A stretch of DNA of 43,371 nucleotides from Sulfuricurvum sp. (GTDB lineage: Bacteria > Campylobacterota > Campylobacteria > Campylobacterales > Sulfurimonadaceae), in NCBI RefSeq assembly GCF_019163035.1, contig NZ_JAFLKV010000036.1, positions 1-43,371 of the forward strand, written 5' to 3'. Below, one piece after another: positions 6,588-28,325 of the stretch (its first letter is position 1; the number at the start of each line of letters is the position of its first letter). A model generated the notes under the pieces. It saw only the letters and a program-made list of their open reading frames with translations, was not told where the DNA came from and ran no database searches. The position numbers and the translations under genes were made by a program.

Positions 6588-7169
6588 CTAAGATAAATAG
6601 AATTCAAAATATGATTTTTCAAATGCGATAAAAAGGGCGAGAAACGAAGCACACTCTTGGTAAAAGTCAGCTCGGTTACTGTTGAACTGCGCATCGATGA
6701 ATCCGCCGATATAGGGCTCTATAACACTTTGAAAGAGTTTCTTCTGCAACGGGCTATGTCCATCGTTGAGCAAGCTGGCGGAAAGACCGAACAATATTCC
6801 GGCTTCATCTTCCCCGACACACACGAAATCGGCTTTAATATATCCCGCTTCACACATAATCTCTTTGGTCATAATTGTCGGCATTCCGAGTTCGCGTTCA
6901 TCATGATAATAGGACATAGATGAATTGATAAAATCACCAAACGGGAGATTAAAGAGGACATGGGCTTCACGCGCTACCTCGTCTTTATTATCCTGCAATG
7001 AGGTGATCATACGATCGGTGTATTCCTTGATCCCCTCTGCAAACGGGGATTCACTGACGGCACGTAGTACCGTGAGGATCGATTCCGAATCTTTCTCTAC
7101 CCCTTCGTTTCGGTATAACGAACCTAAGACAGTGTAAATTGCGGCTCTGGCGCCTACTAGCGATTCCAT
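6588..7169 (-). CDS. TorD/DmsD-family molybdoenzyme chaperone
   Basis: Cytoplasmic chaperone that would bind the FdhA Tat signal and hold the protein until cofactor and Fe-S insertion are complete. The 193-aa all-helical sequence has the family layout: 'ARAAIYTVLGSLYR' at the N-terminus, 'HVLFNLPFG' with an aromatic-rich stretch around residues 85-105, and 'FYQECASFLALFIAFEKSYF' at the end. Its position between a ferredoxin gene and the Tat-targeted fdh genes matches Cj1514c in Campylobacter jejuni. Its ATG overlaps the stop of the ferredoxin gene (TAATG) with AAGGAAGG upstream, so the two are translationally coupled. Confidence 0.85.
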   Translation of the reverse strand: MESLVGARAAIYTVLGSLYRNEGVEKDSESILTVLRAVSESPFAEGIKEYTDRMITSLQDNKDEVAREAHVLFNLPFGDFINSSMSYYHDERELGMPTIMTKEIMCEAGYIKADFVCVGEDEAGILFGLSASLLNDGHSPLQKKLFQSVIEPYIGGFIDAQFNSNRADFYQECASFLALFIAFEKSYFEFYLS

Positions 7170-8671
7170 TAATATCCTTCCTTAGCGCCATTGTCAAAAT
7201 GATCTTTGAGCATTAGTTTCGGCTTACACTCCGCACAGCAGTAGAGGGTTCGCGTTTTAACATCATCCCACATCAATGAAGCAAACATACCCGCCACTTT
7301 AGCAATGGCCTTTTCCGTTGCAAACGGCTTACCGCATTCAACACAGCAAAACACTTCGTCTTTGGCAACCGCCGAAAAGGTTACATAGCTCTCCTCTTCT
7401 CTAAAACGCCCCGGTACTAAAGTAATGGAGTGTTCAGGACAGGTACTCTCGCAATGACCGCATCCGGTACACAATGCCGGATTAAGGGCAAGAGATTGAT
7501 TCTGTGGTTGTGCTTGGAAAGCACCGCTTTTGCACACATAGGCACATCCCATGCACAAAGTACATTTGTCATCAACATACAAATCATTAAAAAGTGAATG
7601 TTGCAATGTATACACGTTGTTGCTATATCCTTTTAAAGACGCCAACCCTTCACTCACTGCCATACGAAGAGGTAAATTGTTCAATCGTCTAGCAAGCGGT
7701 GTAAAACGTTTAGAATGGCGCGATGCTGAAACGATATCTCCGATCACATCGCCGCCGAAGCGTTCAAAGATACGGTTCACATTACAAATTGCCACTTGGG
7801 TAGATACCGGCAGCGCTGTTATATCCGGAAAGTAAACGTCTCCTCCAGATTTGAGAACCATTAACGAGAGATAAAGTTCATTGAGAAGAGAATAATTCGG
7901 AACGCTGAGTATCACTGTTTCGCTGTAGAGAGGTGAAGAGAGTTTCATCAAATCGGCATCGGTCGCAACGAGAACACCGTAACCTTCGCTATTTTCCAAC
8001 GCAGCGATTAACCCCGCAACATTAAAACGGGAATTTTGGATGGCTCCGGATGGGCATACCGCAACACACGAACCGCATTCTGTACAGTCGCTTAGACGTA
8101 AATGGATGGTTTTTGCCTCTGTATCTTCGACAAGAGCGGAATACTCACAGCTATCCAGACAGGCACGACATGCAGGCAAATCTTTGGAAGCGTAATCGCA
8201 TTGCCCTTCTGTGAAAAGAAGGCTTTTTGTAAAGGTGGTTTTGGTTGCTCTGGCAGTAAGTTGGGGAGCAACACGTGATAAATTACCGTGAATCTCAATC
8301 GCATCGTATTTAAGCCATGGATTATTGTCTCCGCAGTAAATTAAAGAGGATGCAGGATAGCTAACGATCTCGTTACCCGCTCGAACATTTACATGATAAT
8401 CGCCGGCACGTCCTTCAATCCGAACAATTTTAGAAGCATCGACAACTTGTACATTGAACCCTTCGTCTAAAGACCCTATCAAACTGTAAGTACCGTCGTT
8501 TATCAGAACAATAGAGTGTTGATTATTTAGAGGATACGAGAAGTCAAGCGTATTATCAAATAAAGTGTCATCCACACTCTGTTGAATACGAATCAGTTTA
8601 TCTTTATAAGTATCAGGTGAGTTTTCTAATAAATACATACAGGCGTATGTCATAGCGCTATAATCGGTCAT
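7169..8671 (-). CDS. Polyferredoxin heading the formate dehydrogenase operon
   Basis: A 500-aa cytoplasmic iron-sulfur protein. Cysteine groups suggest four [4Fe-4S] clusters: C168-x2-C-x3-C with an earlier Cys (C158), 'CTECGSCVAVCP' (196-207), 'CTLCMGCAYVC' and 'CTGCGHCESTCP' (about 370-415). A C-terminal pair 'CCVECGKPF' and 'CCAECKPK' looks like a zinc or additional metal site. The first 150 residues and the segment between the two ferredoxin blocks resemble no domain I can name with certainty. It has no signal peptide, so it stays in the cytoplasm, opposite the periplasmic FdhABC. It might serve cofactor or cluster assembly, or a soluble electron branch. It is the first gene of the operon, with AAAGGA before the ATG and two 17-bp operators upstream. 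Confidence 0.85.
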   Translation of the reverse strand: MTDYSAMTYACMYLLENSPDTYKDKLIRIQQSVDDTLFDNTLDFSYPLNNQHSIVLINDGTYSLIGSLDEGFNVQVVDASKIVRIEGRAGDYHVNVRAGNEIVSYPASSLIYCGDNNPWLKYDAIEIHGNLSRVAPQLTARATKTTFTKSLLFTEGQCDYASKDLPACRACLDSCEYSALVEDTEAKTIHLRLSDCTECGSCVAVCPSGAIQNSRFNVAGLIAALENSEGYGVLVATDADLMKLSSPLYSETVILSVPNYSLLNELYLSLMVLKSGGDVYFPDITALPVSTQVAICNVNRIFERFGGDVIGDIVSASRHSKRFTPLARRLNNLPLRMAVSEGLASLKGYSNNVYTLQHSLFNDLYVDDKCTLCMGCAYVCKSGAFQAQPQNQSLALNPALCTGCGHCESTCPEHSITLVPGRFREEESYVTFSAVAKDEVFCCVECGKPFATEKAIAKVAGMFASLMWDDVKTRTLYCCAECKPKLMLKDHFDNGAKEGY

Positions 8672-8719: not shown

Positions 8720-8734
8720 GATACAGCCTGTATC
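8720..8734. promoter_or_regulatory. 15-bp perfect palindrome in the fdh operon leader
   Basis: GATACAGCCTGTATC reads identically on both strands except for its centre base. It lies 14 bp downstream (in the direction of transcription) of the 17-bp operator at 8749 and about 50 bp before the polyferredoxin start. A palindrome of the same size and similar AGCCT centre follows the operator in front of the diiron operon (18992). It could be a second protein site or a 5' mRNA hairpin. Confidence 0.4.
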
Positions 8735-8748
8735 TTTTTGGGCAATAA

Positions 8749-8765
8749 GTAAACTATTATTTTAC
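8749..8765. promoter_or_regulatory. 17-bp palindromic operator, copy 1 (fdh operon)
   Basis: GTAAACTATTATTTTAC, an inverted repeat with one mismatch, 77 bp upstream of the polyferredoxin ATG. It shares the pattern GTWAA-N7-TTWAC with copies at 8858, 9046, 19027 and 20184 and a weaker copy at 12305, all outside genes and all next to selenocysteine- or formate-related units. The binding protein is not identified. Confidence 0.7.
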
Positions 8766-8857
8766 GTTTTGTAATTATTCTTCATTGTGGCTTAAATTAA
8801 TATTAAAGTCATTTATTTAATTTTATAGAAAATTCAAGCGGAATATAAGATAGTTAA

Positions 8858-8874
8858 GTTAAAATATTTTTAAC
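8858..8874. promoter_or_regulatory. 17-bp palindromic operator, copy 2 (fdh operon/tRNA-Sec)
   Basis: GTTAAAATATTTTTAAC is the exact reverse complement of copy 4 at 19027. On the minus strand a TATATT hexamer begins about 11 bases beyond its edge, so the palindrome would occupy roughly the -35 position of an fdh promoter. Confidence 0.7.
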
Positions 8875-8917
8875 CTTTTATGCTTTATGTGGAATAATTT
8901 GAGGGGAAAAGAGGATT

Positions 8918-9015
8918 TGGCGAGAAGGTGAAGGAATTGAACCTTCCTTCGAACAGCCACCTGCCCGAACAATGGGTTTGAAGTCCATGGTGCCCACCAG
9001 GGTCACATACCTCCC
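8918..9015 (-). tRNA. selC: tRNA-Sec (anticodon UCA)
   Basis: About 98 nt, similar in size to E. coli selC. The anticodon loop is CTTCAAA (UCA anticodon) on a stem ATGG/CCAT. The long variable arm is a 9-bp stem TTCGGGCAG/CTGTTCGAA with two G-U pairs and a GTGG loop. The T arm is GAAGG-TTCAATT-CCTTC, followed by an 8-nt acceptor strand and GCCA, so CCA is encoded. The D arm GTGaCCC-TGGT-GGGCAC has six pairs with a bulged A, in the tRNA-Sec manner. The pair closing the anticodon loop is A-C, and the 5' acceptor strand (GGGAGGT...) pairs with ACCTTCTC only imperfectly, using G-U pairs. The exact 5' end is therefore uncertain by a base or so. It lies upstream of the fdh operon on the same strand and opposite selA. 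Confidence 0.93.
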
Positions 9016-9028
9016 ATCTCACAATGCC

Positions 9029-9034
9029 ATTCTA
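9029..9034 (-). promoter_or_regulatory. Probable -10 box for tRNA-Sec
   Basis: TAGAAT on the minus strand, 13 nt before the tRNA 5' end, with the 17-bp palindrome at 9046 about 11 nt further upstream where a -35 box would be. Confidence 0.45.
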
Positions 9035-9045
9035 GCTAAATAAAA

Positions 9046-9062
9046 GTTAAATATTTTTTAAC
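9046..9062. promoter_or_regulatory. 17-bp palindromic operator, copy 3 (tRNA-Sec/selA)
   Basis: GTTAAATATTTTTTAAC lies between the divergent tRNA-Sec and selA, 30 bp from the tRNA and 18 bp before the selA ATG. For tRNA-Sec it would sit near -32; for selA it must overlap the promoter or the leader. It could control both. Confidence 0.65.
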
Positions 9063-9080
9063 CTGTATCGGAGCACTACG

Positions 9081-10433
9081 ATGGAGACCCATAGCAGACC
9101 TGCCATCCCTCAACTGGGGAGATTTTTGGATCGAACTGAGTTTATCACTCTTAATCGCCAAACACTAACCATCTTAGCTCGTCAACTTTTTGAAGAGATT
9201 CGTCACGGTAAAACCGATATCGGAGCAAATACTGATGAGTCCGTTTTGGTAGAAATAATCTTATCCCGATTGGATACGCTGTGTCATGATTCATTGATTC
9301 CTTTGATCAACGCGACAGGGATTGTTTTGCATACCAATCTCGGACGAAGCCCCATCGAAAAATCAATACTTGATGAAATGCAGGAGAGCATCGGGAGCTA
9401 CTGTAATCTTGAATTTGATATTGATAGCGGAAAACGAGGGGAACGCTACGGACATTTGACTAAAAAACTCTCATTTTTACTGGGATGCGAAGATGCCATC
9501 GTCGTTAACAATAACGCAGCAGCCGTCTTTTTGATCCTAAATACCTTCGCTAAAGGAAAAGAGACCATCGTATCGCGAGGAGAATTGGTAGAGATCGGCG
9601 GTTCCTTTAGAATTCCCGATGTGATGAGGGAGAGTGGAACCCTGCTAAAAGAGATAGGGACGACCAACAAAACCAAAGCCTCTGATTATACGGCGGCAAT
9701 CACTCCGCAGACGGCGGTTATGATGAAGGTTCACCGCTCCAATTTCTCCGTTGTTGGTTTTACCCATGAGGTAGCATTTGAAGAGCTGATACCTATTGCT
9801 CAGTCTAATAATGTTATCGACTACTATGATGCCGGTAGTTTGAATCTTTTCGACGCTCCCTATCTGGGGAATGAAACGTGTGCCAAAGCACTGTTTGAAC
9901 ACGCACCTTCCCTCGTTAGCTTTAGCGGAGACAAACTGTTGGGCTCCGTACAAGCGGGAATCATCGCCGGAAAAAAAGAGCTCATCGACAAAATCAAAAA
10001 AAATCAACTCTTACGGATGCTTCGAGTCGATAAACTGACGATGTCCGTATTGGAAAAAACCCTTACTCGCTATATCCAAAAAGGGCCTCAGGCGATAAAA
10101 ACCCATAAACTCTTATCTAAAACACTTATTGATATGCAACTACAGGCTGATTTTGTCCTCTCAGGGGTTGATCACTCATATAAACTTTCCACAGGTAAAA
10201 CATCCACCTATGCGGGAGGAGGTTCACTTCCACAGCATCTGCTAGAGAGTCTCGCACTAATTATCGAAGATCACCCTAAAAATGCCGAACGCACGATTAA
10301 AGCACTCCGTGCGCAGGGTCTCATTGCCCGAATCGAAAAAGATAGGGTTCTTATCGACTTACGCAGTATCGATGATGATGAGCTATCACAGGTAATGAAG
10401 ATTTTAAATACCGTTTTGGAGGAACGCCCATGA
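9081..10433 (+). CDS. selA: L-seryl-tRNA(Sec) selenium transferase SelA
   Basis: PLP enzyme that converts seryl-tRNA-Sec to selenocysteyl-tRNA-Sec with selenophosphate. The 450 aa show 'NATGIVLHTNLGRSP' (78-91), 'RGERYGHL' (119-126), 'VNNNAAAV' (142-149), 'SRGELVEIGGSFRIPDVM' (165-182) and the PLP-binding Lys in 'SFSGDKLLGS' (K285). Length is normal. The ATG has a CGGAG site seven bases upstream. selA and selB overlap by four bases (ATGA), so they are coupled. The position divergent to tRNA-Sec and the selenoprotein operon it serves, with a shared palindrome between them, points to co-regulation. Confidence 0.98.
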   Translation: METHSRPAIPQLGRFLDRTEFITLNRQTLTILARQLFEEIRHGKTDIGANTDESVLVEIILSRLDTLCHDSLIPLINATGIVLHTNLGRSPIEKSILDEMQESIGSYCNLEFDIDSGKRGERYGHLTKKLSFLLGCEDAIVVNNNAAAVFLILNTFAKGKETIVSRGELVEIGGSFRIPDVMRESGTLLKEIGTTNKTKASDYTAAITPQTAVMMKVHRSNFSVVGFTHEVAFEELIPIAQSNNVIDYYDAGSLNLFDAPYLGNETCAKALFEHAPSLVSFSGDKLLGSVQAGIIAGKKELIDKIKKNQLLRMLRVDKLTMSVLEKTLTRYIQKGPQAIKTHKLLSKTLIDMQLQADFVLSGVDHSYKLSTGKTSTYAGGGSLPQHLLESLALIIEDHPKNAERTIKALRAQGLIARIEKDRVLIDLRSIDDDELSQVMKILNTVLEERP

Positions 10434-12262
10434 AAACCACTATAGTCGGTCTGGCCGGACATGTCGATCACGGGAAAACGTCACTTATTCGTGCATTAAA
10501 CGGTTTTGACGGGGATCAGACCCGCGAAGAGAAACGGCGCGGTTTGACGATGGATCTCAGCTTTACACAGATGGATCAACAGGAGAAACGGATATTTTTA
10601 GTCGATGTTCCAGGACATGAAAAATTTGTAAAACACTATTTGGCAGGGGTATTCGGTTTCGACGTTCTTCTACTGATTGTCGCGGCTAATGAAGGGATTT
10701 GTAAACAAAGTATTGAGCATCTCGAACTCGCGCATCTTGCCGGAGTAAAAAGTGTTATTTTGGTTCTTACCAAATGCGATCTGGTAGAACCGGATGATGC
10801 GGCAATCGTCGAAAAAGATATTTTAAACCTCATCGAAAATATCGGTTTAAAGAGTTTATTTTCAGCTCATGTAGGACGACATGATCCCTCCTCCTACGAA
10901 CAGCTCAAACATAAACTCTTCTCGTATGATTTACCGCAACGTCCACAAGAGCCTTATTTTCGTTACTATATAGATCGGAGTTTTTCCAAAGACGGCTATG
11001 GAACCATTGTCACCGGAACCGTTTTAGGTGGTTCCTTAAAAACCAAAGATAAAATCACTATTCCGCGACTCAAAACTACCGCTATTGTTAGAACGATTCA
11101 TTCAGGGCTGAACTATGTCCCCACTGCCCTTCCGAATGAGCGTATAGCCCTTAACCTCTCAGGCGTAAAATCGCATGATCTTAAACGGGGAGATATCCTT
11201 TGTACCCCTAATTTTCTACGCGGCTTCCTTCAGATTGATGTCATGATCACGCCTCTCAAAGGGGTGACACTTAAACATCAAAGTGAAGCGACGGTATACA
11301 TAGGTTCAGCCCGCCACAACGTCGTATTAAAAATCATCTCCGAACATGACACCTATGCTATTGCCATTTTTGAAAGCACCACCCCGATTTACGCCTTGTA
11401 TCGTGAAAAATTTATTCTGCGTGATGCGCAGGGGACGCTCGGAGGAGGCGAAGTCCTTAATCCCATAGCCGATCCTATGAAACGAAAACAAAAAAATGAA
11501 TTTCTTCTTTTGCTACAGCAGAAAAAACTCTCCGAAGCGTTTGCTATGCTGATGGAGATTCATAAGAAAGGTTTCGGTTTGATCGGAGCCTATCAGCGTT
11601 TCGGGATGGATCATACCTCTGCGCTTGAGTTAGCAATGGGAGTTGCGAATTCTTACCTCGATCATGATGAAAAAGTACTTTATCCCTCTAGCACGTTAGA
11701 GATGCTTAAAGAGTATATTCGAGCGATTTATAAAAAAAACAGACGTGCCCTCCTCTCTAAAAACTCGCTCCATTTACGGTTTATCTGGGCATCTGTCAAT
11801 CTTTGCCAAGAAGTCCTTACTCAACTCGAATCAAATGATGAGCTACAATTTAGTGAGGGGTTATACCGAAGTGTCCATTGTGATATTGAAGATATGCCGC
11901 AGTATATGGAAGAGTCTCTCTATGGTATTTTAGAGACACAGGGGTGGGCACCAGAAGCTCCGTATGTGATTTATGAAAGTCTCGATCTTGATCGTATTCA
12001 CGGGGACGACACGATGAAACGGCTCTGCAGTGCCGGAAAAGTGATTCGACTGGCGCACAATCTTTTTATCAGCGCACCTCACCTATCGCACACGATGCAG
12101 TATCTACGCGGAGTCATCAGTGACTATGGATATGTCGATATCGAGCTGGCCAAAACGCAAACAGGGCTAAGCCGAAAGTATTTGATAGCCTATCTGGAAT
12201 ATCTTGACCGATTTGAAGATATACAATGCGAGGGTACTCGCCGATCTTTGAAGGCGGCATGA
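10430..12262 (+). CDS. selB: Selenocysteine-specific elongation factor SelB
   Basis: GTPase that carries Sec-tRNA to the ribosome at UGA codons marked by a SECIS hairpin. The 610-aa protein has an EF-Tu-like N-terminus with P-loop 'GHVDHGKTSL' (residues 10-19), 'RGLTMDLSF' in switch I, 'DVPGHEKFV' (G3) and 'LTKCDL' (G4). These are followed by beta-barrel domains and a C-terminal set of winged helices (about 370-610) that bind SECIS RNA. Length agrees with bacterial SelB. It overlaps selA by ATGA. Its only evident client in this window is fdhA. The 3' end is followed by about 75 bp before the sensor trio, with no terminator seen. Confidence 0.97.
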   Translation: MKTTIVGLAGHVDHGKTSLIRALNGFDGDQTREEKRRGLTMDLSFTQMDQQEKRIFLVDVPGHEKFVKHYLAGVFGFDVLLLIVAANEGICKQSIEHLELAHLAGVKSVILVLTKCDLVEPDDAAIVEKDILNLIENIGLKSLFSAHVGRHDPSSYEQLKHKLFSYDLPQRPQEPYFRYYIDRSFSKDGYGTIVTGTVLGGSLKTKDKITIPRLKTTAIVRTIHSGLNYVPTALPNERIALNLSGVKSHDLKRGDILCTPNFLRGFLQIDVMITPLKGVTLKHQSEATVYIGSARHNVVLKIISEHDTYAIAIFESTTPIYALYREKFILRDAQGTLGGGEVLNPIADPMKRKQKNEFLLLLQQKKLSEAFAMLMEIHKKGFGLIGAYQRFGMDHTSALELAMGVANSYLDHDEKVLYPSSTLEMLKEYIRAIYKKNRRALLSKNSLHLRFIWASVNLCQEVLTQLESNDELQFSEGLYRSVHCDIEDMPQYMEESLYGILETQGWAPEAPYVIYESLDLDRIHGDDTMKRLCSAGKVIRLAHNLFISAPHLSHTMQYLRGVISDYGYVDIELAKTQTGLSRKYLIAYLEYLDRFEDIQCEGTRRSLKAA

Positions 12263-12304
12263 TGGAAAAGTATCCCATTTTAAACCAAATTTATCGATTA
12301 TAAA

Positions 12305-12321
12305 GTAAACTATTTTTTTAT
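12305..12321. promoter_or_regulatory. 17-bp operator-like sequence, weaker copy 6 (sensor trio)
   Basis: GTAAACTATTTTTTTAT matches copy 1 at 15 of 17 positions but the right half is degraded. It begins immediately after a TATAAA hexamer (12299-12304) and would cover the transcription start of the binding-protein/kinase/regulator genes. That position would suit autorepression. It is weaker than the other five and could be chance in AT-rich DNA. Confidence 0.4.
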
Positions 12322-12339
12322 TTTTATTCTTAAAGTGTG

Positions 12340-13497
12340 ATGATGCAAAAAAACATTAAACCCATATCTCTCCTATTGCTTCTCATCACACTGATCGTAC
12401 TCTATTTTCTATTCCCTTTTGAACGCGAACATAAAAACGATATCGTGTTTGGTAGCAGTGCCGCACTTTCGGGTCCATTGCAAGACAACGGTATCGATTA
12501 TACGAATGGAATAGCGTGCGGATTTAAGGCATTCAATGATGCCGGCGGAATACAAAATCGCCACATCAAGCTACGTGTATTGGATGACCAATACGAGCCT
12601 TTCATCACGAGAAAAAATATTGATTCTTTAATGCGGGATCCGGATTTATTCGGTATTCTCGGCGTTGTCGGAACACCTACCTCCGAAGAGGCACTCAAAA
12701 TCACTGCCAGAACGCAAATACCTTTTTTAATGCCCCTCAGCGGCGCTGAGTTTTTATATAACTACCATTATGAGCATCTCTTTACTCTCCGCCCGAGCTA
12801 CGCCGATGAAGCACGCCGAATGGTTCATCATATGCAAAAACAAAATATTCAAAAGATTGCAATTTTTTATCAAAACGATAGCTATGGACTTGCATCACTA
12901 TATGCCCTCCAAGAAGCAGTTCGTCCCACATCCATTAAAGTAATTGCCGAGGGGGTCTACAATCGCAATACACTCTCCATCCATTATGCGTTTAATGAGA
13001 TTACGAAAGCGCAGCCTGATGCCGTTGTGATCGGAGGTGCCTTAAAGCCGACTGTCGAGTTTATCCGCAAAACGGCACAGTTTAACCCGAATCTTTCATT
13101 TTATACTTTCTCTTTTGTCGGCTATGAACCTCTTCGCAAAGCTCTACTATCGGAAAATTTAAAGAACATACCGATGTACATGACCCAAACCGTCCCTCCA
13201 CTGAGTAAAAATCTCGCTGAAATCGTCCTTTTTAAACGTCTTTATAAACACTATTATCCATTGAAAGAACCGACTTCTATAGCATTTGAGGGATATCTGG
13301 CATCACAAGTTATCCTTAAAGCACTGAGTAATTCCTCAACGCTATCACGTTCTTCATTTGAGCATGCCCTCTCAAAACTTGAATTTTCTCTTGTTGATCG
13401 ACAAATAATCCGTTATAGCAAGTCATACCATCGGGGACTGCAAAATGTCTACCTTTTACCGTTAAACTCCGAAACCGGAGGTGATGTCGATGAGTAA
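12340..13497 (+). CDS. LivK-type periplasmic binding protein of a two-component system
   Basis: Type I periplasmic substrate-binding protein (385 aa from the ATG at 12340; the track starts one codon earlier at GTG). An N-terminal hydrophobic segment (about 8-25) acts as a signal or anchor. The core starts with 'DIVFGSSAALSGPLQDNG' and includes 'GIACGFKAFNDAGGI', both typical of branched-chain amino acid/amide binding proteins. There are no transporter permease or ATPase genes nearby. Instead its stop overlaps the start of a sensor kinase, so it is probably a ligand-sensing partner, as TorT is for TorS. The ligand cannot be told from sequence; the gene context suggests something tied to formate or selenium-dependent respiration. 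A ribosome site is not obvious. Confidence 0.75.
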   Translation: MMQKNIKPISLLLLLITLIVLYFLFPFEREHKNDIVFGSSAALSGPLQDNGIDYTNGIACGFKAFNDAGGIQNRHIKLRVLDDQYEPFITRKNIDSLMRDPDLFGILGVVGTPTSEEALKITARTQIPFLMPLSGAEFLYNYHYEHLFTLRPSYADEARRMVHHMQKQNIQKIAIFYQNDSYGLASLYALQEAVRPTSIKVIAEGVYNRNTLSIHYAFNEITKAQPDAVVIGGALKPTVEFIRKTAQFNPNLSFYTFSFVGYEPLRKALLSENLKNIPMYMTQTVPPLSKNLAEIVLFKRLYKHYYPLKEPTSIAFEGYLASQVILKALSNSSTLSRSSFEHALSKLEFSLVDRQIIRYSKSYHRGLQNVYLLPLNSETGGDVDE

Positions 13498-15097
13498 GCC
13501 GTGCCGCTATCTGAATATTTTTTATCAACTATCATTGGGGATGAAGACTCGTATATTGATCGCTGTTACTGCATTAGGGATTCTTATTATCGGATTCATT
13601 GCGACATTGACCCTGTATGGAATGAAAAATAGCTTCGATAATTCCTTTCATTTACGCACTCTCTCAATCGCCCGCCTCCAGACGATCAAAGACGTTCATA
13701 CCCTCAACATACTCAATACCTACCGAGATATTATCGATAACCACACCGATGTAGAAAAAACCTATGAAGTCCTTAATATTCTTAAAAAAAACCTCGATTT
13801 ACGTTGGAATGAGTACTCTTTGTCACGACACGATATTCAAACCAATTTTTTTGATACTATGGATGAAACGATACTTTCAACGTTTCTTACCCCTATTCCC
13901 AATACCATTATGATTGATGAAGACGAAATCTATTCGAAAGCGAATCTCAATATTCAGCGTCTCTTAAAAACCATCGATACGATAACGGTTCTTTATAAAA
14001 ACAACCAACGTCCACAAGCCGATGCACTTATCAAAAGTGATCTTTACCCGATTTTAGATACTACTAACATCTATTTAGAACAACTGACGGCCTTTCATTT
14101 ACAACGCTCCATCTATGAAAAAGAGAAAACGGATCGTCTATTTGGTGCTACTTCGTGGGTGATATTCGTAATGATATTTGTAGTTCTAGGAATTTCAGTC
14201 TTTTTGGCTTATTTCATATTAGAACATATCAAAACACTTCATCAATCACTAGAAGATCGTGTACGCGACAAAACCAAAGAACTCGTAGATCTAAATACAT
14301 CCCTTGAACTTCGTATTACACATGAGATTCGTCAAAGCAGGCTAAAAGATGAAATGCTCCATCAGCAGGCTAAACTAGCGTCTATGGGAGAGATGATTTC
14401 CAATATTGCTCATCAGTGGCGACAACCGCTTAACGCACTCACTATCCTAATTCAAACTTTCCGACTAAAAAGCCGCAGTAATAAATTGACGCCGGAGTTT
14501 ATCGATTCTCAAGTCACCGAAGGTCTCCGCATCGCAAACACTATGTCCGATACTATAGAGAGTTTCCAAAACTACTTTAAGCCGAATAAAGTGAAAACCA
14601 TTTTTCCTCTCCTTGAGACGATTCGCCATGCCGTTAGCTTGATTGAGGGGATATTGCATCATGCGAATATAGACGTTGAATTCAATACGAAAAAGGAGAT
14701 TATGATTTCAGGCTATCCGAACGATTTCACCCAAATCATTATCAATCTCCTCAATAATGCAAAAGACGCATTACTGATCTCACCCGACAAACTCAAAATG
14801 ATACGAATTCACATCACTCACAAACCGGAAAAATCACTCTTGCTCATCCGTATTATCGACAATGGAGGGGGCATTCCCTCCTCCGTTCTTAAAAGAATAT
14901 TTGAACCTTATTTTACGACAAAACATCAATCCAGCGGAACAGGTATAGGATTGTATATGACTCAAAAAATCATAGCAGACCAATTCGAGGGGATGATCAG
15001 TGCGCAAAATATCAGATTGCTTTTTAATGAAACCTATTATAATTGTGCTTCTTTTAAAATCACAATACCACTATTCGAGATTGAGAGTAAAACATGA
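13490..15097 (+). CDS. Membrane sensor histidine kinase
   Basis: Sensor kinase of about 535 aa. It has a first membrane helix (about 18-42), a periplasmic domain of roughly 170 residues rich in predicted helix, and a second helix ('WVIFVMIFVVLGISVFLAYF', about 220-242). A coiled linker, a phosphoacceptor box ('GEMISNIAHQWRQPLN') and an ATPase domain follow, with N box 'NLLNNAKDAL', 'DNGGGIP' and 'GTGIGLYMT'. I chose the ATG at 13490, eight bases after GGAGG, rather than the GTG at 13481. The gene overlaps the binding protein by 8 bp and the regulator by 4 bp. This is an operon-encoded trio in which the kinase probably reads the binding protein in the periplasm. Confidence 0.88.
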   Translation: MSKPCRYLNIFYQLSLGMKTRILIAVTALGILIIGFIATLTLYGMKNSFDNSFHLRTLSIARLQTIKDVHTLNILNTYRDIIDNHTDVEKTYEVLNILKKNLDLRWNEYSLSRHDIQTNFFDTMDETILSTFLTPIPNTIMIDEDEIYSKANLNIQRLLKTIDTITVLYKNNQRPQADALIKSDLYPILDTTNIYLEQLTAFHLQRSIYEKEKTDRLFGATSWVIFVMIFVVLGISVFLAYFILEHIKTLHQSLEDRVRDKTKELVDLNTSLELRITHEIRQSRLKDEMLHQQAKLASMGEMISNIAHQWRQPLNALTILIQTFRLKSRSNKLTPEFIDSQVTEGLRIANTMSDTIESFQNYFKPNKVKTIFPLLETIRHAVSLIEGILHHANIDVEFNTKKEIMISGYPNDFTQIIINLLNNAKDALLISPDKLKMIRIHITHKPEKSLLLIRIIDNGGGIPSSVLKRIFEPYFTTKHQSSGTGIGLYMTQKIIADQFEGMISAQNIRLLFNETYYNCASFKITIPLFEIESKT

Positions 15098-15762
15098 ACC
15101 ATTCACTTAATAAATACAACATCCTGATTGTAGACGATGAAGTACCTATTTTAAATCAAATGTCATTTATCTTAGAAGACTTTGTCGCCAAAGTCTATAC
15201 GGCAACCGATGGGATCACTGCGCTAGAGCAGCTTTCTAAACATAAAATTGATATTGTTATTACCGATATTTTAATGCCGAACATGAATGGCATAGCCTTC
15301 ATCTCCGAAATCAAAAAACGAAATATTTCTCTCTCAGCTATCATTATTACAACAGCTCATTCGGAAACGAACTATCTTCTTGATGCCATTAAATTACGCG
15401 TGGACGGTTACTTGCTTAAACCGATTATGGCAGATGAAATGCTCGAATTGATTGATAAATCAATAGCCCTAAAAGCCAAAGAAGATGAATTATGGATCAA
15501 AGACCGTATGCTTGAGGGGATTAGTACCTTTGTCGGAGGAAAAAAAATAGAGATTATCCGTTATCTCTTCGAGCATGTTGACGCGGAAAGTGTCTTTTAC
15601 GGCTCCTATGAAGATATTATGCTCGCACTCAACGTTAGCAAGCCGACCGTTGTTTCAACATTTAGACAGTTGATTGAGGTCGGTATTGTTACCAAACTCA
15701 AAAATAAAATTTATCGTGTAAATGCTTCAGCACACAGCGAGAAAAGTGTGATTGAACCTTAA
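15094..15762 (+). CDS. Response regulator with RepL/Crp-like winged-helix output
   Basis: A 222-aa response regulator. The receiver has 'ILIVDDE' (10-16), phosphoacceptor D58 in 'VITDILMPNMNG' and K109 in 'GYLLKP'. The output domain (about 148-211) is not OmpR- or NarL-like. It reads 'GSYEDIMLALNVSKPTVVSTFRQL' followed by 'GIVTKLKNKIYRV', the pattern of a helix-turn-helix plus wing seen in RepL- and Crp-type winged helices. It therefore probably binds DNA. It is the only DNA-binding regulator encoded within the island that bears the 17-bp palindromes, so it is the leading candidate to bind them. It is co-translated with the kinase (ATGA overlap) and ends inside a hairpin shared with the convergent gene. 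Confidence 0.85.
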   Translation: MNHSLNKYNILIVDDEVPILNQMSFILEDFVAKVYTATDGITALEQLSKHKIDIVITDILMPNMNGIAFISEIKKRNISLSAIIITTAHSETNYLLDAIKLRVDGYLLKPIMADEMLELIDKSIALKAKEDELWIKDRMLEGISTFVGGKKIEIIRYLFEHVDAESVFYGSYEDIMLALNVSKPTVVSTFRQLIEVGIVTKLKNKIYRVNASAHSEKSVIEP

Positions 15763-15773
15763 AAAAGGTTCAA
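15752..15773. terminator. Bidirectional hairpin at convergent gene ends
   Basis: A 9-bp stem TTGAACCTT/AAGGTTCAA with an AAAA loop covers the stop codons of both the response regulator (+) and the PhnD-like gene (-), which overlap by 4 bp. T tracts after it are short on both sides, so efficiency is unclear. Confidence 0.6.
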
Positions 15774-16565
15774 CCATTTCATTGCACTCTCAAGATCATT
15801 ATACCCTTGTAGCTCATACTCTCCCGTTATAACCCATTTGGATAACGCCTCCATCTCCATCATTTTGGTGATGTCGCTACGCTGAGTATCCATCCCCAGC
15901 ATAAATTCGACAAATTCATTAACATAGGATGCATTAGGGGTAATGTTGGTGAAATTGCAATGCGAATACCCTCGACTTTTGTAAAACGGTCTGAGCGACG
16001 AACCGCTCAGTCCCAGTTCGATCATCCGCATCCATGTCGATGTGGCAAGGGCGATAGCGTCGTATTCGTTATTTTTGAGTTTTTCCAAAATATCGTATTC
16101 GCTTCGTCCGGTATCGCCGTGTTTCCCCAAATCACTATCCATACGGTTCATCGTATAATCGCGATTTGGCTCTAACCCTTGCTCTTTTAAATAATAGGCG
16201 GGGAGGATAAACGCCTGTGCCGAGTCACCACTGCCGAAACAGACCCGTTTATTTTTCAAATCTTCCAATGTTTGGATATTGGAATCTTGATGGGCGATAA
16301 ACATCGAGGTAAAATCGACATCACTGTCCCGCATCAAAAGTGCTTCCGCAAACGGAGCACGTTTTTTCGTCCGAAGCCACGCGACATTGGTATTCCACGC
16401 CAAATCGACTTTGTGATCCAATAGCGCTTGTACCTGTGTCTCGTAATTGGAGAACAGTACATAATCAAGATCAAATTTTTTCTCTTTGGCATAATCACGG
16501 ATGATCTCCCAAATGAGGACTACTTTCGGGTCATACGCGACCACGCCTACCATTAATGATGCCAT
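15759..16565 (-). CDS. Cytoplasmic PhnD/SsuA-like binding-fold protein
   Basis: A 268-aa protein with the type II periplasmic-binding fold of the phosphonate/phosphite (PhnD) group. It has 'MVGVVAYDPKVV' at the start, 'LLDHKVDLAWNTNVAW' (substrate-cleft region), 'LKNKRVCFGSGDSAQ' and a late 'YSHCNFTNI'. It has no signal peptide or lipobox; the mature fold begins almost at the first residue, so it should be cytoplasmic, and there are no transporter genes with it. It may be an enzyme, a ligand chaperone or a sensor. It is the last gene of a three-gene operon with a flavoprotein-like and a diiron protein, 15 bp after the former, with AAAGGA before its ATG. Function unknown. Confidence 0.7.
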   Translation of the reverse strand: MASLMVGVVAYDPKVVLIWEIIRDYAKEKKFDLDYVLFSNYETQVQALLDHKVDLAWNTNVAWLRTKKRAPFAEALLMRDSDVDFTSMFIAHQDSNIQTLEDLKNKRVCFGSGDSAQAFILPAYYLKEQGLEPNRDYTMNRMDSDLGKHGDTGRSEYDILEKLKNNEYDAIALATSTWMRMIELGLSGSSLRPFYKSRGYSHCNFTNITPNASYVNEFVEFMLGMDTQRSDITKMMEMEALSKWVITGEYELQGYNDLESAMKWLNLF

Positions 16566-16580
16566 GTGAATTCCTTTTAT

Positions 16581-17705
16581 TTAGGGTATTTGTTGTCCGG
16601 TTAACGCTTTGCCGAGCCAAACGCTGAGTACATCGGTTGAGGGAGCCATAACCGCAGCGGCATACGCATCTCTCAAATAGCGCTCAAGCGGAAGCCGTTT
16701 GCTGTATGCGTGCCCTCCTCCGACTTTCATCGCACGGCTGCATACGTCCACCGCATTAGTACTCGCTTCCAATCGAGCCGATATAATCAACGCCAGAGCA
16801 TCGCTGCGTCCTTCCAGCGCGGCTTGTGCCGCATTGAGCGTTAATGCTTTGGAAGCACTCGCCGAAGAAAAAAGTGCTGCGATATGCAGCTGTACGGTTT
16901 CGATTTGCGAGAGAGTCGAACCGTCAGTATATGCGCGTGACGATGCATACTCAATCGCACATCCGCTGGCCGCAAGCGATAAACCCGTATAGACGGAGGC
17001 AAGCCCCAGAATAAAGAACGGAGCAACCACATTAAAGACAATTCCGACACCGTCTCCGTGAGCACCTACAAGATGATCGTCGCTGATGGCAACATTCTCA
17101 TAATAGACAGGGACACTGGCATTTCCTCGCATCCCTAATCCGTCCCAAGCACTATCGTCATGACGCATCCCTTCCATCGTATTGGGAGTTGCGAAAACGC
17201 TCAGCCCTTCTCCTTCGGGATTTGCGGCTAAAACAAGATAATAATCGGCATGATGCGCCGAGGTCACAAAGCTTTTTTTTCCGTTGAGAAGATATCCGTT
17301 CTCCGTTTTTACCGCTTTAATTTCGGGATTGTAAAAATGGGTTCCTGTCCCTGTTTCACTAAATGCAAGTGCCAAAGCCAACTCACCCGAAGCGATTTTC
17401 GGCAAATAAAACTCTTTTTGCTCCGATGTTCCGAAAGCAACGATGGACATCGTCGCAACGTTATGCATCATGTAGCACAGCGCGGTTGTTGCACACACGC
17501 TTCCCAATGCCATACATGTTTCGACGTGATCGACAATGCTTCCTGATGCGCCTCCGTACTCTTTAGGGACGAGCAAACCCGTATATCCCTCTTTTTTAAG
17601 AGCCGTATAGGCTTCTTTCGGAAATACACCCTCTCTATCGGCTTGCACCGTATACGGCGCGACATGACATTGCGCAAAAGCGCTCACTTCTTCAAATAAT
17701 CCCAT
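16581..17705 (-). CDS. Acyl-CoA dehydrogenase-fold flavoprotein lacking the usual catalytic Glu
   Basis: A 374-aa protein with the acyl-CoA dehydrogenase fold: N-terminal helices with 'GLLVPKEYGGASGS', a middle beta domain ('ALAFSETGTGTHF', 'GYLLNGKKSFVTSA') and a C-terminal helical bundle. Where true dehydrogenases have the Glu in 'IYEGT', this one reads 'AYAAAVMAPSTDVL', with no acidic residue at that spot. Such changes are found in flavin monooxygenases of this fold (DszC and SfnB relatives) and other non-dehydrogenase members. No other beta-oxidation genes are nearby. Genetic partners are a diiron protein upstream (10 bp gap) and a PhnD-like protein downstream. I infer an oxidative step on an unknown small molecule. 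Confidence is high in fold and low in reaction. Confidence 0.75.
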   Translation of the reverse strand: MGLFEEVSAFAQCHVAPYTVQADREGVFPKEAYTALKKEGYTGLLVPKEYGGASGSIVDHVETCMALGSVCATTALCYMMHNVATMSIVAFGTSEQKEFYLPKIASGELALALAFSETGTGTHFYNPEIKAVKTENGYLLNGKKSFVTSAHHADYYLVLAANPEGEGLSVFATPNTMEGMRHDDSAWDGLGMRGNASVPVYYENVAISDDHLVGAHGDGVGIVFNVVAPFFILGLASVYTGLSLAASGCAIEYASSRAYTDGSTLSQIETVQLHIAALFSSASASKALTLNAAQAALEGRSDALALIISARLEASTNAVDVCSRAMKVGGGHAYSKRLPLERYLRDAYAAAVMAPSTDVLSVWLGKALTGQQIP

Positions 17706-17715
17706 TTATTCTTCC

Positions 17716-18936
17716 TTACATAAAATTTGCAGTATGAGACATAGATATCTCTTTAGCTGTTTCTTCATCAAATCCGCATTCGATCATGCGGCGTACTCGG
17801 TTTTCTCCCATCCTTTTTTTAAGTTGCTCCACCCGCTCATATCCGAGCGCATACCCATCTTCATCACTTCCTCCGGCTAAAATGGCTAAGGAGGAGAGCA
17901 AAAGCTCATTTTCCTGATTCATCTCATCCAAATACACTTTTCGGCTATCCACCGCCTCTTTCAGATACGCTATTCTTTTAGGATTGGCCTGAACAAGCGC
18001 TTTGACATGTACCAATCCGTAATTGACATGACGCTGTTCATCTTTTTTGGCAAGGGTGACAATTTTTTTCGTGACTGGATCGGGGGCGTATTTGATCAGA
18101 AAATCGAGCAGATCCAAAAAGGTCCCCTCTCCCAATACGTGAAGTAAAAATGAAGTTTTAAAATAGTCTTTTTCGATAAAAAGAGAGTAGAGGGAACGTT
18201 GCGTTGCGGTCGTCGAGTATTGCAGTCCTATTTTTTTTGCATTGGCACGACGTGAAAATGCTTCGATATGACGTGCTTCATCATAAATGATTGTCCCCAG
18301 AAACATCACCAGTTCCATATAATAGGGAGAAATTTTGGACAAAAATTTTCCGGGGATATACAAAGCGGAGAACTCATTTTCCGCGAGATAGGTCATCACC
18401 TGACATATCGCCGTTTCAATCTCAGGATCAAGATCGGGGATCGCTGCCCAATCTATATCGGTATCGGCACTCCATTGATTCTGCTTCGCTTCTTCATAAA
18501 GCCGTGTGACATTTTTTGCCCAAAGAAACTCTTTTTCGCTCAGTTCAAAAGCATACAGAGGAGAGGAGTTTTCGATATGGGCACCGCGGGGCATTAAACC
18601 AAAGAGTTTCGGCGCGACATCAAGCGCCGGTTCTGTTCGTCCATCAAACCCTTGTTCATCCGATAGAGTATGCGATTCAAAATCTTTTCGTACAAGATAC
18701 GAAAAACCCTCAAGATCGGAACTGGTAGCGACTAGAGAACATCGATTGACCTGTACCCACCCCTCAAATTCAAAAGATACGGAACGCTGAACAACGGTAA
18801 CTTTAAAGATTTCACCCATCCGAAGCGTCGGAAGAAGTGCATTAAGGCGTAAAAGCCAGGCCTGAGTGAGGGAAGAAGAACGTATCGTATGTTCTGCGAC
18901 ATACGTGTTCATTAAAAAGAGGTCTTGTCGTTCCAT
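17716..18936 (-). CDS. Ferritin-like diiron protein, oxygenase or oxidase candidate
   Basis: A 406-aa protein whose central region (about 180-310) shows all the ligands of a ferritin/ribonucleotide-reductase-like diiron centre. These are E188 ('LAENEFSAL'), E220-x2-H223 ('YDEARHIEAF'), E270 ('LGEGTFLDL') and E300-x2-H303 ('KDEQRHVNYG'). An N-terminal part of about 110 residues and a C-terminal tail ('DEETAKEISMSHTANF') are not recognised. It is not NrdB: the radical tyrosine context and length differ and no nrdA is near. It is first in an operon with the flavoprotein-like and PhnD-like genes and has a GGAGA ribosome site. A 17-bp operator and two further inverted repeats lie in its leader. 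Probably an O2-dependent oxidase or oxygenase; the substrate is unknown. Confidence 0.78.
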   Translation of the reverse strand: MERQDLFLMNTYVAEHTIRSSSLTQAWLLRLNALLPTLRMGEIFKVTVVQRSVSFEFEGWVQVNRCSLVATSSDLEGFSYLVRKDFESHTLSDEQGFDGRTEPALDVAPKLFGLMPRGAHIENSSPLYAFELSEKEFLWAKNVTRLYEEAKQNQWSADTDIDWAAIPDLDPEIETAICQVMTYLAENEFSALYIPGKFLSKISPYYMELVMFLGTIIYDEARHIEAFSRRANAKKIGLQYSTTATQRSLYSLFIEKDYFKTSFLLHVLGEGTFLDLLDFLIKYAPDPVTKKIVTLAKKDEQRHVNYGLVHVKALVQANPKRIAYLKEAVDSRKVYLDEMNQENELLLSSLAILAGGSDEDGYALGYERVEQLKKRMGENRVRRMIECGFDEETAKEISMSHTANFM

Positions 18937-18957
18937 AAAGTCTCCGATAGAGGCAGG

Positions 18958-18990
18958 AACAACAGCATGATCAGAGCGACGGCTGTTGTT
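18958..18990. promoter_or_regulatory. Leader inverted repeat before the diiron operon
   Basis: AACAACAGC and GCTGTTGTT, a perfect 9-bp inverted repeat separated by 15 nt, lies in the 5' leader of the diiron gene, ending 22 bp before its ATG. It would form a hairpin close to the ribosome site (GGAGA), so it may affect translation or mRNA stability. Confidence 0.45.
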
Positions 18991-18991
18991 T

Positions 18992-19006
18992 GTCTAAGCC
19001 TTAGAC
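18992..19006. promoter_or_regulatory. 15-bp perfect palindrome in the diiron operon leader
   Basis: GTCTAAGCCTTAGAC is a perfect odd palindrome directly after a TATAAG -10 candidate, so it probably spans the transcription start. It occupies a position like that of the 15-bp palindrome at 8720. Confidence 0.45.
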
Positions 19007-19012
19007 CTTATA
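19007..19012 (-). promoter_or_regulatory. Candidate -10 box of the diiron operon
   Basis: TATAAG on the minus strand, 14 nt downstream of the 17-bp palindrome at 19027 and adjacent to the 15-bp palindrome. The palindrome centre would fall near -35. Confidence 0.4.
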
Positions 19013-19026
19013 GCGCCAAAAATTAA

Positions 19027-19043
19027 GTTAAAAATATTTTAAC
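19027..19043. promoter_or_regulatory. 17-bp palindromic operator, copy 4 (diiron operon)
   Basis: GTTAAAAATATTTTAAC, identical to the reverse complement of the copy at 8858. It lies in the 128-bp gap between the selD stop and the diiron gene, which indicates that the diiron operon has its own regulated promoter rather than relying on selD read-through. Confidence 0.7.
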
Positions 19044-19064
19044 CTTTTTTTCTTTACAAGAGAC

Positions 19065-20114
19065 TTAATTACTATCAATTACTACAATATCATAGCCCTC
19101 ATAGGGGAGAACGTCACCGACAATAGCGGCACTCAAACCTGAATCAATGCATTTCACTACCATTTGTTGTGCAAATTCCTGAGGTACACTCACTAAAAGT
19201 CCCCCCGAGGTCTGAGCATCAAACAGAATCATTTCCCGCTCAAATTCGATCGAAGAGGCTAAATAGACATGCGGTTTATTATACTCACGGTTGGCATGCG
19301 ATCCTGCGGGGATAATCCCCATAGAAGCCATTTCAATCGCTTCGGGAAAATAGGGAACCTTAGCGAGATCAACCCGCATCGTCACGTTTCCAGCACTCAT
19401 CTCCCGCATGTGTCCCATAAAACCGAAGCCCGTTACGTCCGTACACGCCGATGCGTGAGACTCTCTGGCGATCAATGAGGCTTTATAATTAAGGGTACGG
19501 AGATTTTCGGCCACTTTCATGGCAAGTACTGGATCTAGCAGATCAGACTTAATCGCCGTAATCAAAATCCCCATCCCCAAAGGTTTGGTCAATATAAGAA
19601 CATCTCCGATCTTCGGGGTATTGTTACGCAGTACTTTATTCGGATGGACAAACCCCGTACATGAGAGACCATACACCATTTCAGGTGTTCGGATCGTATG
19701 CCCGCCGACGATTACCGCTCCGCACTCGATCGCTTTATTCTGCCCTCCTCTCATGATTTCTGAGAGGATTTCAGGCGTGTGGTGCTCAGAATCAAATCCG
19801 ACCACATTAAGTGCCGTTTTGGCATCCCCACCCATCGCAAACACATCACTGAGTGAATTTGCAGCAGCAATTTGCCCATAGATGTAAGGGTCATCCACAA
19901 CTGGAGTAATAAAATCAACAGTCTGAACAATAGCCAAATCATCATTGATTTTATAGACTCCCGCATCTTCATTTCCTTCAAAACCGACAATCAAGTCTTT
20001 GTGAAATGATTGGATATGACATGTCGATTCGGCTAAAGATCCGGGTGAAAGCTTGGCGGCACACCCTGAAGCACGAACAAATTTTGTGAGTTTAGCATCA
20101 GTATTCATCATCAT
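19065..20114 (-). CDS. selD: Selenide, water dikinase SelD (Cys form)
   Basis: Makes selenophosphate from selenide and ATP, the selenium donor for SelA. The 349 aa begin with the catalytic loop 'ASGCAAKLSPG', where C18 and K21 match the catalytic Cys/Sec and Lys. C18 is a normal TGT codon, so this SelD is not itself a selenoprotein. Further motifs: 'GNEDAGVYKI', 'QTVDFITPVVDDPY', 'AANSLSDVFAMGG', 'VGGHTIRTPE' and 'DAQTSGGLL'. Three ATGs occur in a row; the first has AGGG six bases upstream. It lies about 8 kb from selAB and has its own 17-bp operator 70 bp upstream. Confidence 0.98.
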   Translation of the reverse strand: MMMNTDAKLTKFVRASGCAAKLSPGSLAESTCHIQSFHKDLIVGFEGNEDAGVYKINDDLAIVQTVDFITPVVDDPYIYGQIAAANSLSDVFAMGGDAKTALNVVGFDSEHHTPEILSEIMRGGQNKAIECGAVIVGGHTIRTPEMVYGLSCTGFVHPNKVLRNNTPKIGDVLILTKPLGMGILITAIKSDLLDPVLAMKVAENLRTLNYKASLIARESHASACTDVTGFGFMGHMREMSAGNVTMRVDLAKVPYFPEAIEMASMGIIPAGSHANREYNKPHVYLASSIEFEREMILFDAQTSGGLLVSVPQEFAQQMVVKCIDSGLSAAIVGDVLPYEGYDIVVIDSN

Positions 20115-20183
20115 ACAATTCCCTATTCTTTTTATTTTTTATTCAAGAATTGTAATGGTTAAAATTGAATTTAGACTGAAAAA

Positions 20184-20200
20184 GTAAAATATTATTTTAC
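20184..20200. promoter_or_regulatory. 17-bp palindromic operator, copy 5 (selD)
   Basis: GTAAAATATTATTTTAC, a near-perfect palindrome 70 bp before the selD ATG. On the minus strand TAAATT begins ten bases downstream and could be the -10. The same gap separates copy 2 from its candidate -10. Confidence 0.7.
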
Positions 20201-27381: not shown

Positions 27382-28325
27382 CACTCGCTGTATCTAGCTG
27401 CCTATTAGGCGAAAAAATTCGATTTGATGGGGGACATAAACGGGATCGTTTTATCACGGATGAGCTCTGTGGATTTGCTGAATTTGTCCCTTTTTGCCCT
27501 GAACATTTAGCCTTTGGGACTCCCCGTCCCTCTGTTCGTCTGGTAAGTGTAGAGGGAGCGGTTCGGGTCCATTCGAACAAAAGCGGTGAGGATTTATCTG
27601 ATGCACTGCTCCAGAGCTGTCATGACGAACTCACTAACCTTGAAGCCAAGAGCTTGTGCGGGATCATCTTCAAATCCAAATCACCTAGTTGCGGAATGAA
27701 AAGTGCCAAACTTTATCTCGAAAACGGCTACTGTGAAGGGAAAGAGGACGGTGTGTTTATGCATCTGTGCCGTGAGCGGTTTCCTCTCCTGCCGATGGAG
27801 GAAGAGGGACGACTTGAAGATGCGTGGCTGAGAGAAAACTTTGTGATGCAGATTTTTGCCTACGATGCGTATGAGACATTCAAAGCCTCAAACCCCTCAT
27901 TAGGTGATTTGGTACGTTTTCATACAATCAATAAATTTCTCCTTCAATCTAAAGACGAAGCTCTCTATCGAGAACTAGGCAATATCGTCGCTAACCGAGA
28001 AAACCATACACTTCAAATGTTATTGGGGATCTATGAGTTGGGATTTAAAACCGCCATTGCGCGAAAAAGTTCGATCAAAAAAACCCGTAATGTATTAGAC
28101 CATTTGGCTGGATTTTTCAAAAATGAGCTCACTAAAAGCGAAAAAGAGGCATTGCATACCCAAATAGGTGATTATGCTTCGAAAATAATCCCCCTCATAG
28201 TTCCCGTCTCGACGATCTACCTTTATGCTAAAAAATACAACACAGAATATCTACTGGATCAAACATTTCTAACCCCCTATCCTAAAACCCTCTCGTTGCG
28301 TTCTCATATCAGCGGCGGTAAATGA
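27378..28325 (+). CDS. DUF523-DUF1722 (YbgA-like) protein
   Basis: A 315-aa two-domain protein. The N-terminal DUF523 (1-140) has 'VSSCLLGEKIRFDGGHKRD', 'FVPFCPEH' and 'SKSPSCGM', whose cysteines could bind a metal or cluster. The C-terminal DUF1722 (about 150-305) includes 'FHTINKFLLQSKDEA' and 'VSTIYLYAKKY'. The same pairing with photolyase occurs in E. coli, where ybgA precedes phr. It has been linked by context to DNA repair or thiol/tRNA chemistry, but its function is not established. It overlaps both neighbours by four bases. Confidence 0.85.
   Translation: MTLAVSSCLLGEKIRFDGGHKRDRFITDELCGFAEFVPFCPEHLAFGTPRPSVRLVSVEGAVRVHSNKSGEDLSDALLQSCHDELTNLEAKSLCGIIFKSKSPSCGMKSAKLYLENGYCEGKEDGVFMHLCRERFPLLPMEEEGRLEDAWLRENFVMQIFAYDAYETFKASNPSLGDLVRFHTINKFLLQSKDEALYRELGNIVANRENHTLQMLLGIYELGFKTAIARKSSIKKTRNVLDHLAGFFKNELTKSEKEALHTQIGDYASKIIPLIVPVSTIYLYAKKYNTEYLLDQTFLTPYPKTLSLRSHISGGK

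Follow-up and report, generated by a model that had tools for sequence, protein, structure and literature searches.

Is the short palindrome repeated between the selenocysteine and formate dehydrogenase genes of this Sulfuricurvum genome a shared operator, and if so, which protein reads it? We call the whole stretch of DNA analyzed (43,371 nt) the window. A pattern search of the window found five perfect palindromes of the form GTWAA-N7-TTWAC, starting at 8749, 8858, 9046, 19027 and 20184. All five are intergenic with none inside genes, and the copy at 8858 is the exact reverse complement of the one at 19027. A first-pass annotation of the same DNA had listed these five copies with exact coordinates and sequences, their intergenic placement and the reverse-complement pair. 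It had also pointed to a weaker sixth copy at 12305, which is real, with a single mismatch and a sequence kept in relatives. The sites and the genes around them are as follows.

3496-6336, minus strand: fdhA, selenocysteine formate dehydrogenase, in two ORFs flanking an in-frame UGA at 5776-5778
7169-8671, minus strand: 500-aa iron-sulfur protein that opens the fdh operon; conserved divergent neighbor of the sensor trio in other families
8749-8765, no strand: palindrome GTAAACTATTATTTTAC, proposed operator at the fdh promoter, site and flanks kept in five species, with a conserved TACAAA preceding it by 2-3 nt on the fdh strand
8858-8874, no strand: palindrome GTTAAAATATTTTTAAC, second copy, on the upstream side of fdh and the downstream side of tRNA-Sec
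8922-9015, minus strand: tRNA-Sec (ARAGORN; Rfam RF01852)
9046-9062, no strand: palindrome GTTAAATATTTTTTAAC, between tRNA-Sec (minus) and selA (plus)
9081-10433, plus strand: selA, with homologues throughout the order by protein search
10430-12262, plus strand: selB (TIGR00475, above cut-off)
12305-12321, no strand: weak palindrome GTAAACTATTTTTTTAT, one mismatch, upstream of the trio of binding protein, kinase and regulator
12337-13497, plus strand: periplasmic binding protein (Pfam Peripla_BP_6; nearest solved structures 4kv7 and 3lop)
13481-15097, plus strand: histidine kinase (HATPase_c, weak 4HB_MCP sensor)
15094-15762, plus strand: response regulator, receiver followed by a long helix and a winged helix (Pfam Response_reg 3.5e-26, RepL)
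19027-19043, no strand: palindrome GTTAAAAATATTTTAAC, upstream of the diiron operon
19065-20114, minus strand: selD, by homology among loci
20184-20200, no strand: palindrome GTAAAATATTATTTTAC, on the upstream side of selD

That each copy precedes a separate unit, as first proposed, is right overall, with one correction: tRNA-Sec is on the minus strand, with the 9046 copy between tRNA-Sec and selA and the 8858 copy downstream of tRNA-Sec. The 9046 site therefore serves tRNA-Sec and/or selA, and those at 8749 and 8858 face fdh. In alignments of relatives, GTAAACTATTTTTTTAT or a near form lies ~15 nt upstream of the binding-protein gene, and one relative has a perfect palindrome ~100 bp upstream of it (L036:14828). 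Within fdhA, the UGA is followed by a SECIS-type hairpin, TCGCC(GGTGT)GGCGA, whose stem varies among relatives and whose loop is GGTGT in these genomes. The tRNA-Sec is the sole Rfam match in the window, and ten related loci had no match at all. SelD carries one in-frame TGA in nearly all of the L273-L302 genomes; the window copy reads GCAAK, with cysteine.

The palindromes are too frequent for AT-rich DNA. The chance expectation for the pattern in the entire window is 0.21, and shuffling the 1,584 intergenic bases alone (33.7% GC) gave an expectation of 0.026 with at most two in 1,000 shuffles, versus five observed, which rules out chance occurrence. Scanning spacers from 0 to 15 in the window revealed enrichment at spacer 7 only. 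A loose form of the pattern, also counted by pattern search, occurs at 22 places in the whole genome. The 17 beyond the window have mixed spacers, whereas the spacers of the five window copies are almost purely A/T.

Within the genus, selA is confined to a few congeners, as judged by protein search. The stricter pattern GTWAAAWWWWWTTTWAC has 14 copies in four selA-positive congeners, of which 13 fall within the sel/fdh cassette at positions equivalent to those in the window, versus three scattered copies among 20 selA-negative congeners, all away from cassette positions. In five-species alignments, every site sits within conserved promoter sequence. The first-pass annotation had named two outcomes that would refute its proposal, a background rate in AT-rich intergenic DNA and a failure of the motif to be kept upstream of the same genes in relatives; both were checked and neither came about, the site being kept in five species and, in a shorter form, elsewhere.

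This sister form, GTAAA-N6-TTTAC (16 bp), is found in Sulfurimonas, the Arcobacter group and Sulfurospirillum between the fdh operon and a divergent trio of binding protein, kinase and regulator, and also upstream of selD, where the site in other families is mostly 80-160 bp away. In these groups and others the trio diverges from an fdh operon comprising the iron-sulfur protein, a TorD-like protein and fdhA, B and C, and such loci often continue into selA-selB or selD. GTAA-N8-TTAC occurs in 36 of 52 divergent fdh/trio intergenic regions versus 0.4 expected. In these 52 regions, the GTAA/TTAC half-sites show no enrichment at any other spacing between 2 and 15. Among all 4+4 palindromes with spacers of 2-15, GTAA-N8-TTAC ties with the overlapping TAAA-N6-TTTA for the largest excess, with a far higher ratio to expectation. 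Many of the regions hold two copies 53-55 bp apart. The conservation has gaps: a clean palindrome is missing from several fdh regions of Sulfurospirillum, matches to the 16-bp pattern in family f11 included none at the sel/fdh loci examined, and family f16 has the trio, fdh and sel genes with no palindrome at the fdh/trio region, nor at selD in G182. In two relatives (L032 and L034), the cassette has gained an insertion, between the trio and the binding-protein gene, of genes ~26% identical to fdhA and fdhB. In Sulfurimonas and the Arcobacter group, another short sequence, GTAAAAATGNNTTTAC, overlaps the start codon of selA, whose second codon varies; this sequence persists in the regulator-negative genome G103 and was therefore excluded as evidence.

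The 16-bp form also stands upstream of genes away from these loci, whose functions we read from translations: unlinked fdhTU-like genes (YeeE/YedE plus TusA-like) in one Arcobacter-family genome, a second torD-fdhA operon in Sulfurospirillum, NiFe hydrogenase genes, an HgdB/HgdC-like pair in one genome, and an operon of diiron and acyl-CoA dehydrogenase genes at 1.44 Mb in a genome of genus g2 whose sel locus is at 0.1 Mb. A site kept upstream of orthologous operons and shared by unlinked, functionally related ones meets the criterion for a regulon. The proposed regulon (fdh, tRNA-Sec, selA, selD, the diiron operon and the trio) thus survives and is extended by the unlinked fdhTU, second fdh, hydrogenase and diiron operons. 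Judged from sequence in the absence of direct binding data, the palindrome is a real operator of selenocysteine and formate genes.

Which protein reads it? The presence of the palindrome follows that of the trio's response regulator gene. A site upstream of selD was observed in 30 of 31 genomes or loci that carry this regulator, versus none of 30 selA-positive genomes without it (nominal Fisher p 1.4e-16, inflated by relatedness, since the genomes counted share phylogenetic history). For part of the genomes, a second query was used to check that the regulator is missing; for the remainder, its absence rests on a looser survey. Two contrasts fall within families, those of the regulator-negative genomes G103 (genus g2) and G323 (family f9). 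Over whole genomes, the 25 regulator-positive f9 genomes have 145 motif copies versus 38 for a reversed control pattern, compared with 6 versus 4 in the four regulator-negative f9 genomes and 38 versus 26 in 29 f11 genomes. Family f16 is the regulator-positive family that breaks the association, and f14 genomes have a related regulator and no motif at selA. The regulators form two clades, and that of the window falls in the clade with no usual link to fdh. Beyond the genus, the regulator closest to it is in G183 (family f17), a genome that likewise carries a 17-bp site, placed between selA and selD. Whether each regulator clade goes strictly with one operator length was considered; the rule holds only in part, as 17-bp copies occur beside 16-bp ones in Arcobacter-group genomes with a regulator of the other clade.

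The binding protein, kinase and regulator are encoded together in the window, and the trio is fixed beside fdh/sel in several families; the window cassette holds no recognizable transcription factor other than the response regulator. The AlphaFold2 model of the latter (pLDDT 86.8) starts with a receiver domain, from which a long helix (113-144) leads to a winged helix. Foldseek searches with the full-length model were swamped by the receiver domain, so the output domain was folded separately, and alone it resembles the dimeric palindrome binders CodY and CRP/CooA/CprK, with weak E-values. By Pfam, the output domains of 36 regulators match RepL (35 of 36), HTH_36 (17) and HTH_Crp_2 (4). The OmpR/PhoB-type Trans_reg_C is not among the families listed for them, leaving the criterion for a TorR-type regulator unmet, and the N-terminal receiver in place of a cNMP-binding domain leaves that for a CRP/FNR (NssR) type unmet too.

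We therefore propose that the palindromes are cassette-borne operators for selenocysteine synthesis and formate oxidation, most likely bound by the response regulator of the adjacent trio; binding is inferred, and we put the probability of this reading at about 0.62. The regulator as binder is a proposal of the present analysis, the first-pass annotation having named none. By this proposal, the periplasmic protein would sense a small ligand, for which formate or another small acid is a guess (4kv7 and 3lop are annotated as leucine/isoleucine/valine-type binding proteins), and would signal to the histidine kinase as TorT does via TorS, an inference by analogy. The phosphorylated regulator would then dimerize, each winged helix reading one GTWAA half-site, and a total operator length of 16 or 17 bp would be tolerated. 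TorT-TorS-TorR is the TMAO respiration system of E. coli. As there, a binding protein, a membrane kinase and a response regulator adjoin the respiratory enzyme that they are presumed to control. Here, in contrast, the binding protein is of the Peripla_BP_6 family, the output domain is a RepL/CRP/CodY-like winged helix and not of OmpR type, the operator is a palindrome instead of direct tor boxes, and the regulon comprises the selenocysteine machinery and formate dehydrogenase.

Promoter positions, presumed from sequence with transcription starts unmapped, bear on the sign of control. The first-pass annotation had placed the palindrome at the -35 position in several cases, with a -10 beginning 10-14 nt beyond it. 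This stands for the 8858 site, for tRNA-Sec (TAGAAT, 11 nt downstream of the 9046 palindrome on the tRNA strand), where the palindrome covers the presumed -35, and for the diiron operon (TATAAG, 14 nt downstream of the 19027 palindrome). It does not stand for fdh, where a better -10, conserved across families (TACAAA/TATAAAAT/TACAAT), lies on the opposite flank, preceding the palindrome by 2-4 nt on the fdh strand, so that the site overlaps the presumed transcription start. Overlap with the fdh start and the tRNA-Sec -35 suggests repression or on/off switching there. The selD site is followed after ~29 nt by a conserved -10 and so lies near -49; activation from that position is possible, the sign of control being inferred.

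The alternative that survives best, a genuine possibility that we nonetheless consider doubtful, is that another factor encoded elsewhere (CRP/FNR, ModE or CodY-like) binds the palindrome, and that the trio's regulator is an activator at a direct repeat, TTAA-N7-TTAA. Response regulators often bind direct repeats. Of the 52 regions (fdh promoters of L080-L159), 37 have this one upstream of the -10, versus ~7 expected; the window copy is at ~8793-8807. The repeat is retained in Sulfurospirillum where the palindrome decays, and remains with the trio in f16, where the palindrome is absent. Against this, the palindrome and the regulator gene are lost together, the cassette lacks any further factor, and the direct repeat, of which several fdh regions of Sulfurimonas showed no exact copy, may belong to the promoter. 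Inspection by eye revealed a similar repeat in several selD promoters. We hold our confidence in the trio's regulator as the palindrome's reader at the level given above because f16 loses the palindrome, several Sulfurospirillum fdh regions have no site, and TTAA-N7-TTAA may be the true site.

AT-rich palindromes are typical of Fur, PerR and Rex-type regulators, and a genus-wide housekeeping protein of this kind could bind the sites. This seems quite unlikely, as 18 of the 20 selA-negative congeners have no copy, though such regulators should exist there, and the geometries of Rex and NssR differ in half-site direction and spacing. That the inverted repeats are RNA hairpins or intrinsic terminators instead of protein sites is hardly tenable: the 8858 and 19027 copies do lie directly downstream of tRNA-Sec and selD, with T-rich stretches after them, but the predicted hairpins are too weak for terminators (-1 to -5 kcal/mol, z 0.1 to -1.9), conservation is in the half-site letters and not in pairing, and most sites, in all families, are upstream of genes.

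NssR of Campylobacter binds TTAAC-N4-GTTAA (PMC1274295), and the expectation that a different regulator acts on GTWAA-N7-TTWAC is consistent with our results. Like NssR and other CRP/FNR proteins of Campylobacterota, the candidate would be a winged-helix reader of a short palindrome with GTTAA/TTAAC-like half-sites; unlike them, it belongs to the response regulators and has no cNMP-binding domain, and the half-sites are reversed (GTWAA-N6/7-TTWAC). Formate dehydrogenase in Campylobacterota is under FdhTU-dependent post-transcriptional control (PMC6682613), and the relevant passages of that review describe no operator or transcriptional regulator for selenocysteine genes. The fdhTU genes serve the same enzyme as selenium accessory genes, and one Arcobacter-family fdhTU-like operon itself bears the palindrome; the difference is that FdhTU act post-transcriptionally. 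HrsM, a selenium-responsive regulator of Methanococcus (PMC11097638), likewise exerts transcriptional control over selenium-related genes, but is archaeal, of LysR type and targets Cys isoforms. The present finding defines an exact operator for the control of selenocysteine and formate genes, predicts its targets and singles out one candidate protein.

Small hairpins in 5' leaders may form a second layer. Two lie in the window.

8720-8734, minus strand: hairpin GATAC(AGGCT)GTATC in the fdh 5' leader, identical in five species
18992-19006, minus strand: hairpin GTCTA(AGGCT)TAGAC in the diiron 5' leader, stem constant and loop AGGCT, CGGGT or AGGGT in relatives

Hairpins with an NGGNN loop on a stem of 5 bp or more are found in the leaders of the window fdh and diiron operons, fdhTU, the HgdB-like pair, the Arcobacter-family diiron operon and some selD genes (outside the window L201, L193, L254-L265 and L089-L114, with no Rfam match), against a background of 1.4% per 90 nt of window and 4.8% per 200 nt of sequence preceding other genes. 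A nine-sequence alignment of diiron leaders (L254-L265) has three helices, with pairing in 95% of cells and four compensating pairs, and the last helix abuts the ribosome-binding site (Shine-Dalgarno region). The loops differ from the GGTGT of the fdhA SECIS. That these hairpins are SECIS-like elements bound by SelB is a guess.

The diiron operon, which the first-pass annotation had included as an operon of unknown function, consists of three genes.

17716-18936, minus strand: diiron (AurF/R2lox-like) protein, first gene of the operon, weak AurF and R2lox matches
16581-17705, minus strand: acyl-CoA-dehydrogenase-fold protein, Rv1679-like (NF049984, 2.7e-78, below cut-off)
15759-16565, minus strand: binding-protein-fold protein, Rv1680-like, distant to the selenate SBP TIGR04553, both below curated cut-offs

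Among 299 genomes of the order, the diiron gene is present in 23 from five families, 22 of which are among the 132 selA-positive genomes (Fisher 7.6e-8, uncorrected for relatedness); the lone diiron-positive, selA-negative genome is only 75% complete. The palindrome also precedes the diiron gene in two f9 genomes and one f15 genome. Most other operon-bearing f9 genomes and three regulator-negative f15 genomes have no palindrome upstream of it. The operon is thus tied to selenium use by its co-occurrence with selA, a link better supported than membership in this regulon everywhere, since 22 of 23 diiron genomes have selA and the operator is patchy at the diiron gene. As far as titles and abstracts go, no functional study of Rv1679 or Rv1680 is evident in the literature, and an uncharacterized operon with Rv1679/Rv1680-like genes in Mycobacterium gains a connection to selenium biology.

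More speculatively, and with low confidence, these observations could be joined into a two-layer regulon of Campylobacterota. A system of binding protein, kinase and an unusual receiver-winged-helix regulator would switch genes through the 16/17-bp palindrome (fdh, selD, tRNA-Sec, fdhTU, hydrogenase), NGGNN leaders (fdh, selD, fdhTU, diiron) would tune translation via SelB or selenium status, and the diiron operon would be a new selenium-acquisition pathway.

Elsewhere in the window, near a photolyase-like gene (28322-29698), 29752-30480 encodes a winged-helix protein whose translation, read by eye, contains a LOV-type PAS motif (GRNCRFLQ); it is possibly a one-component blue-light regulator.
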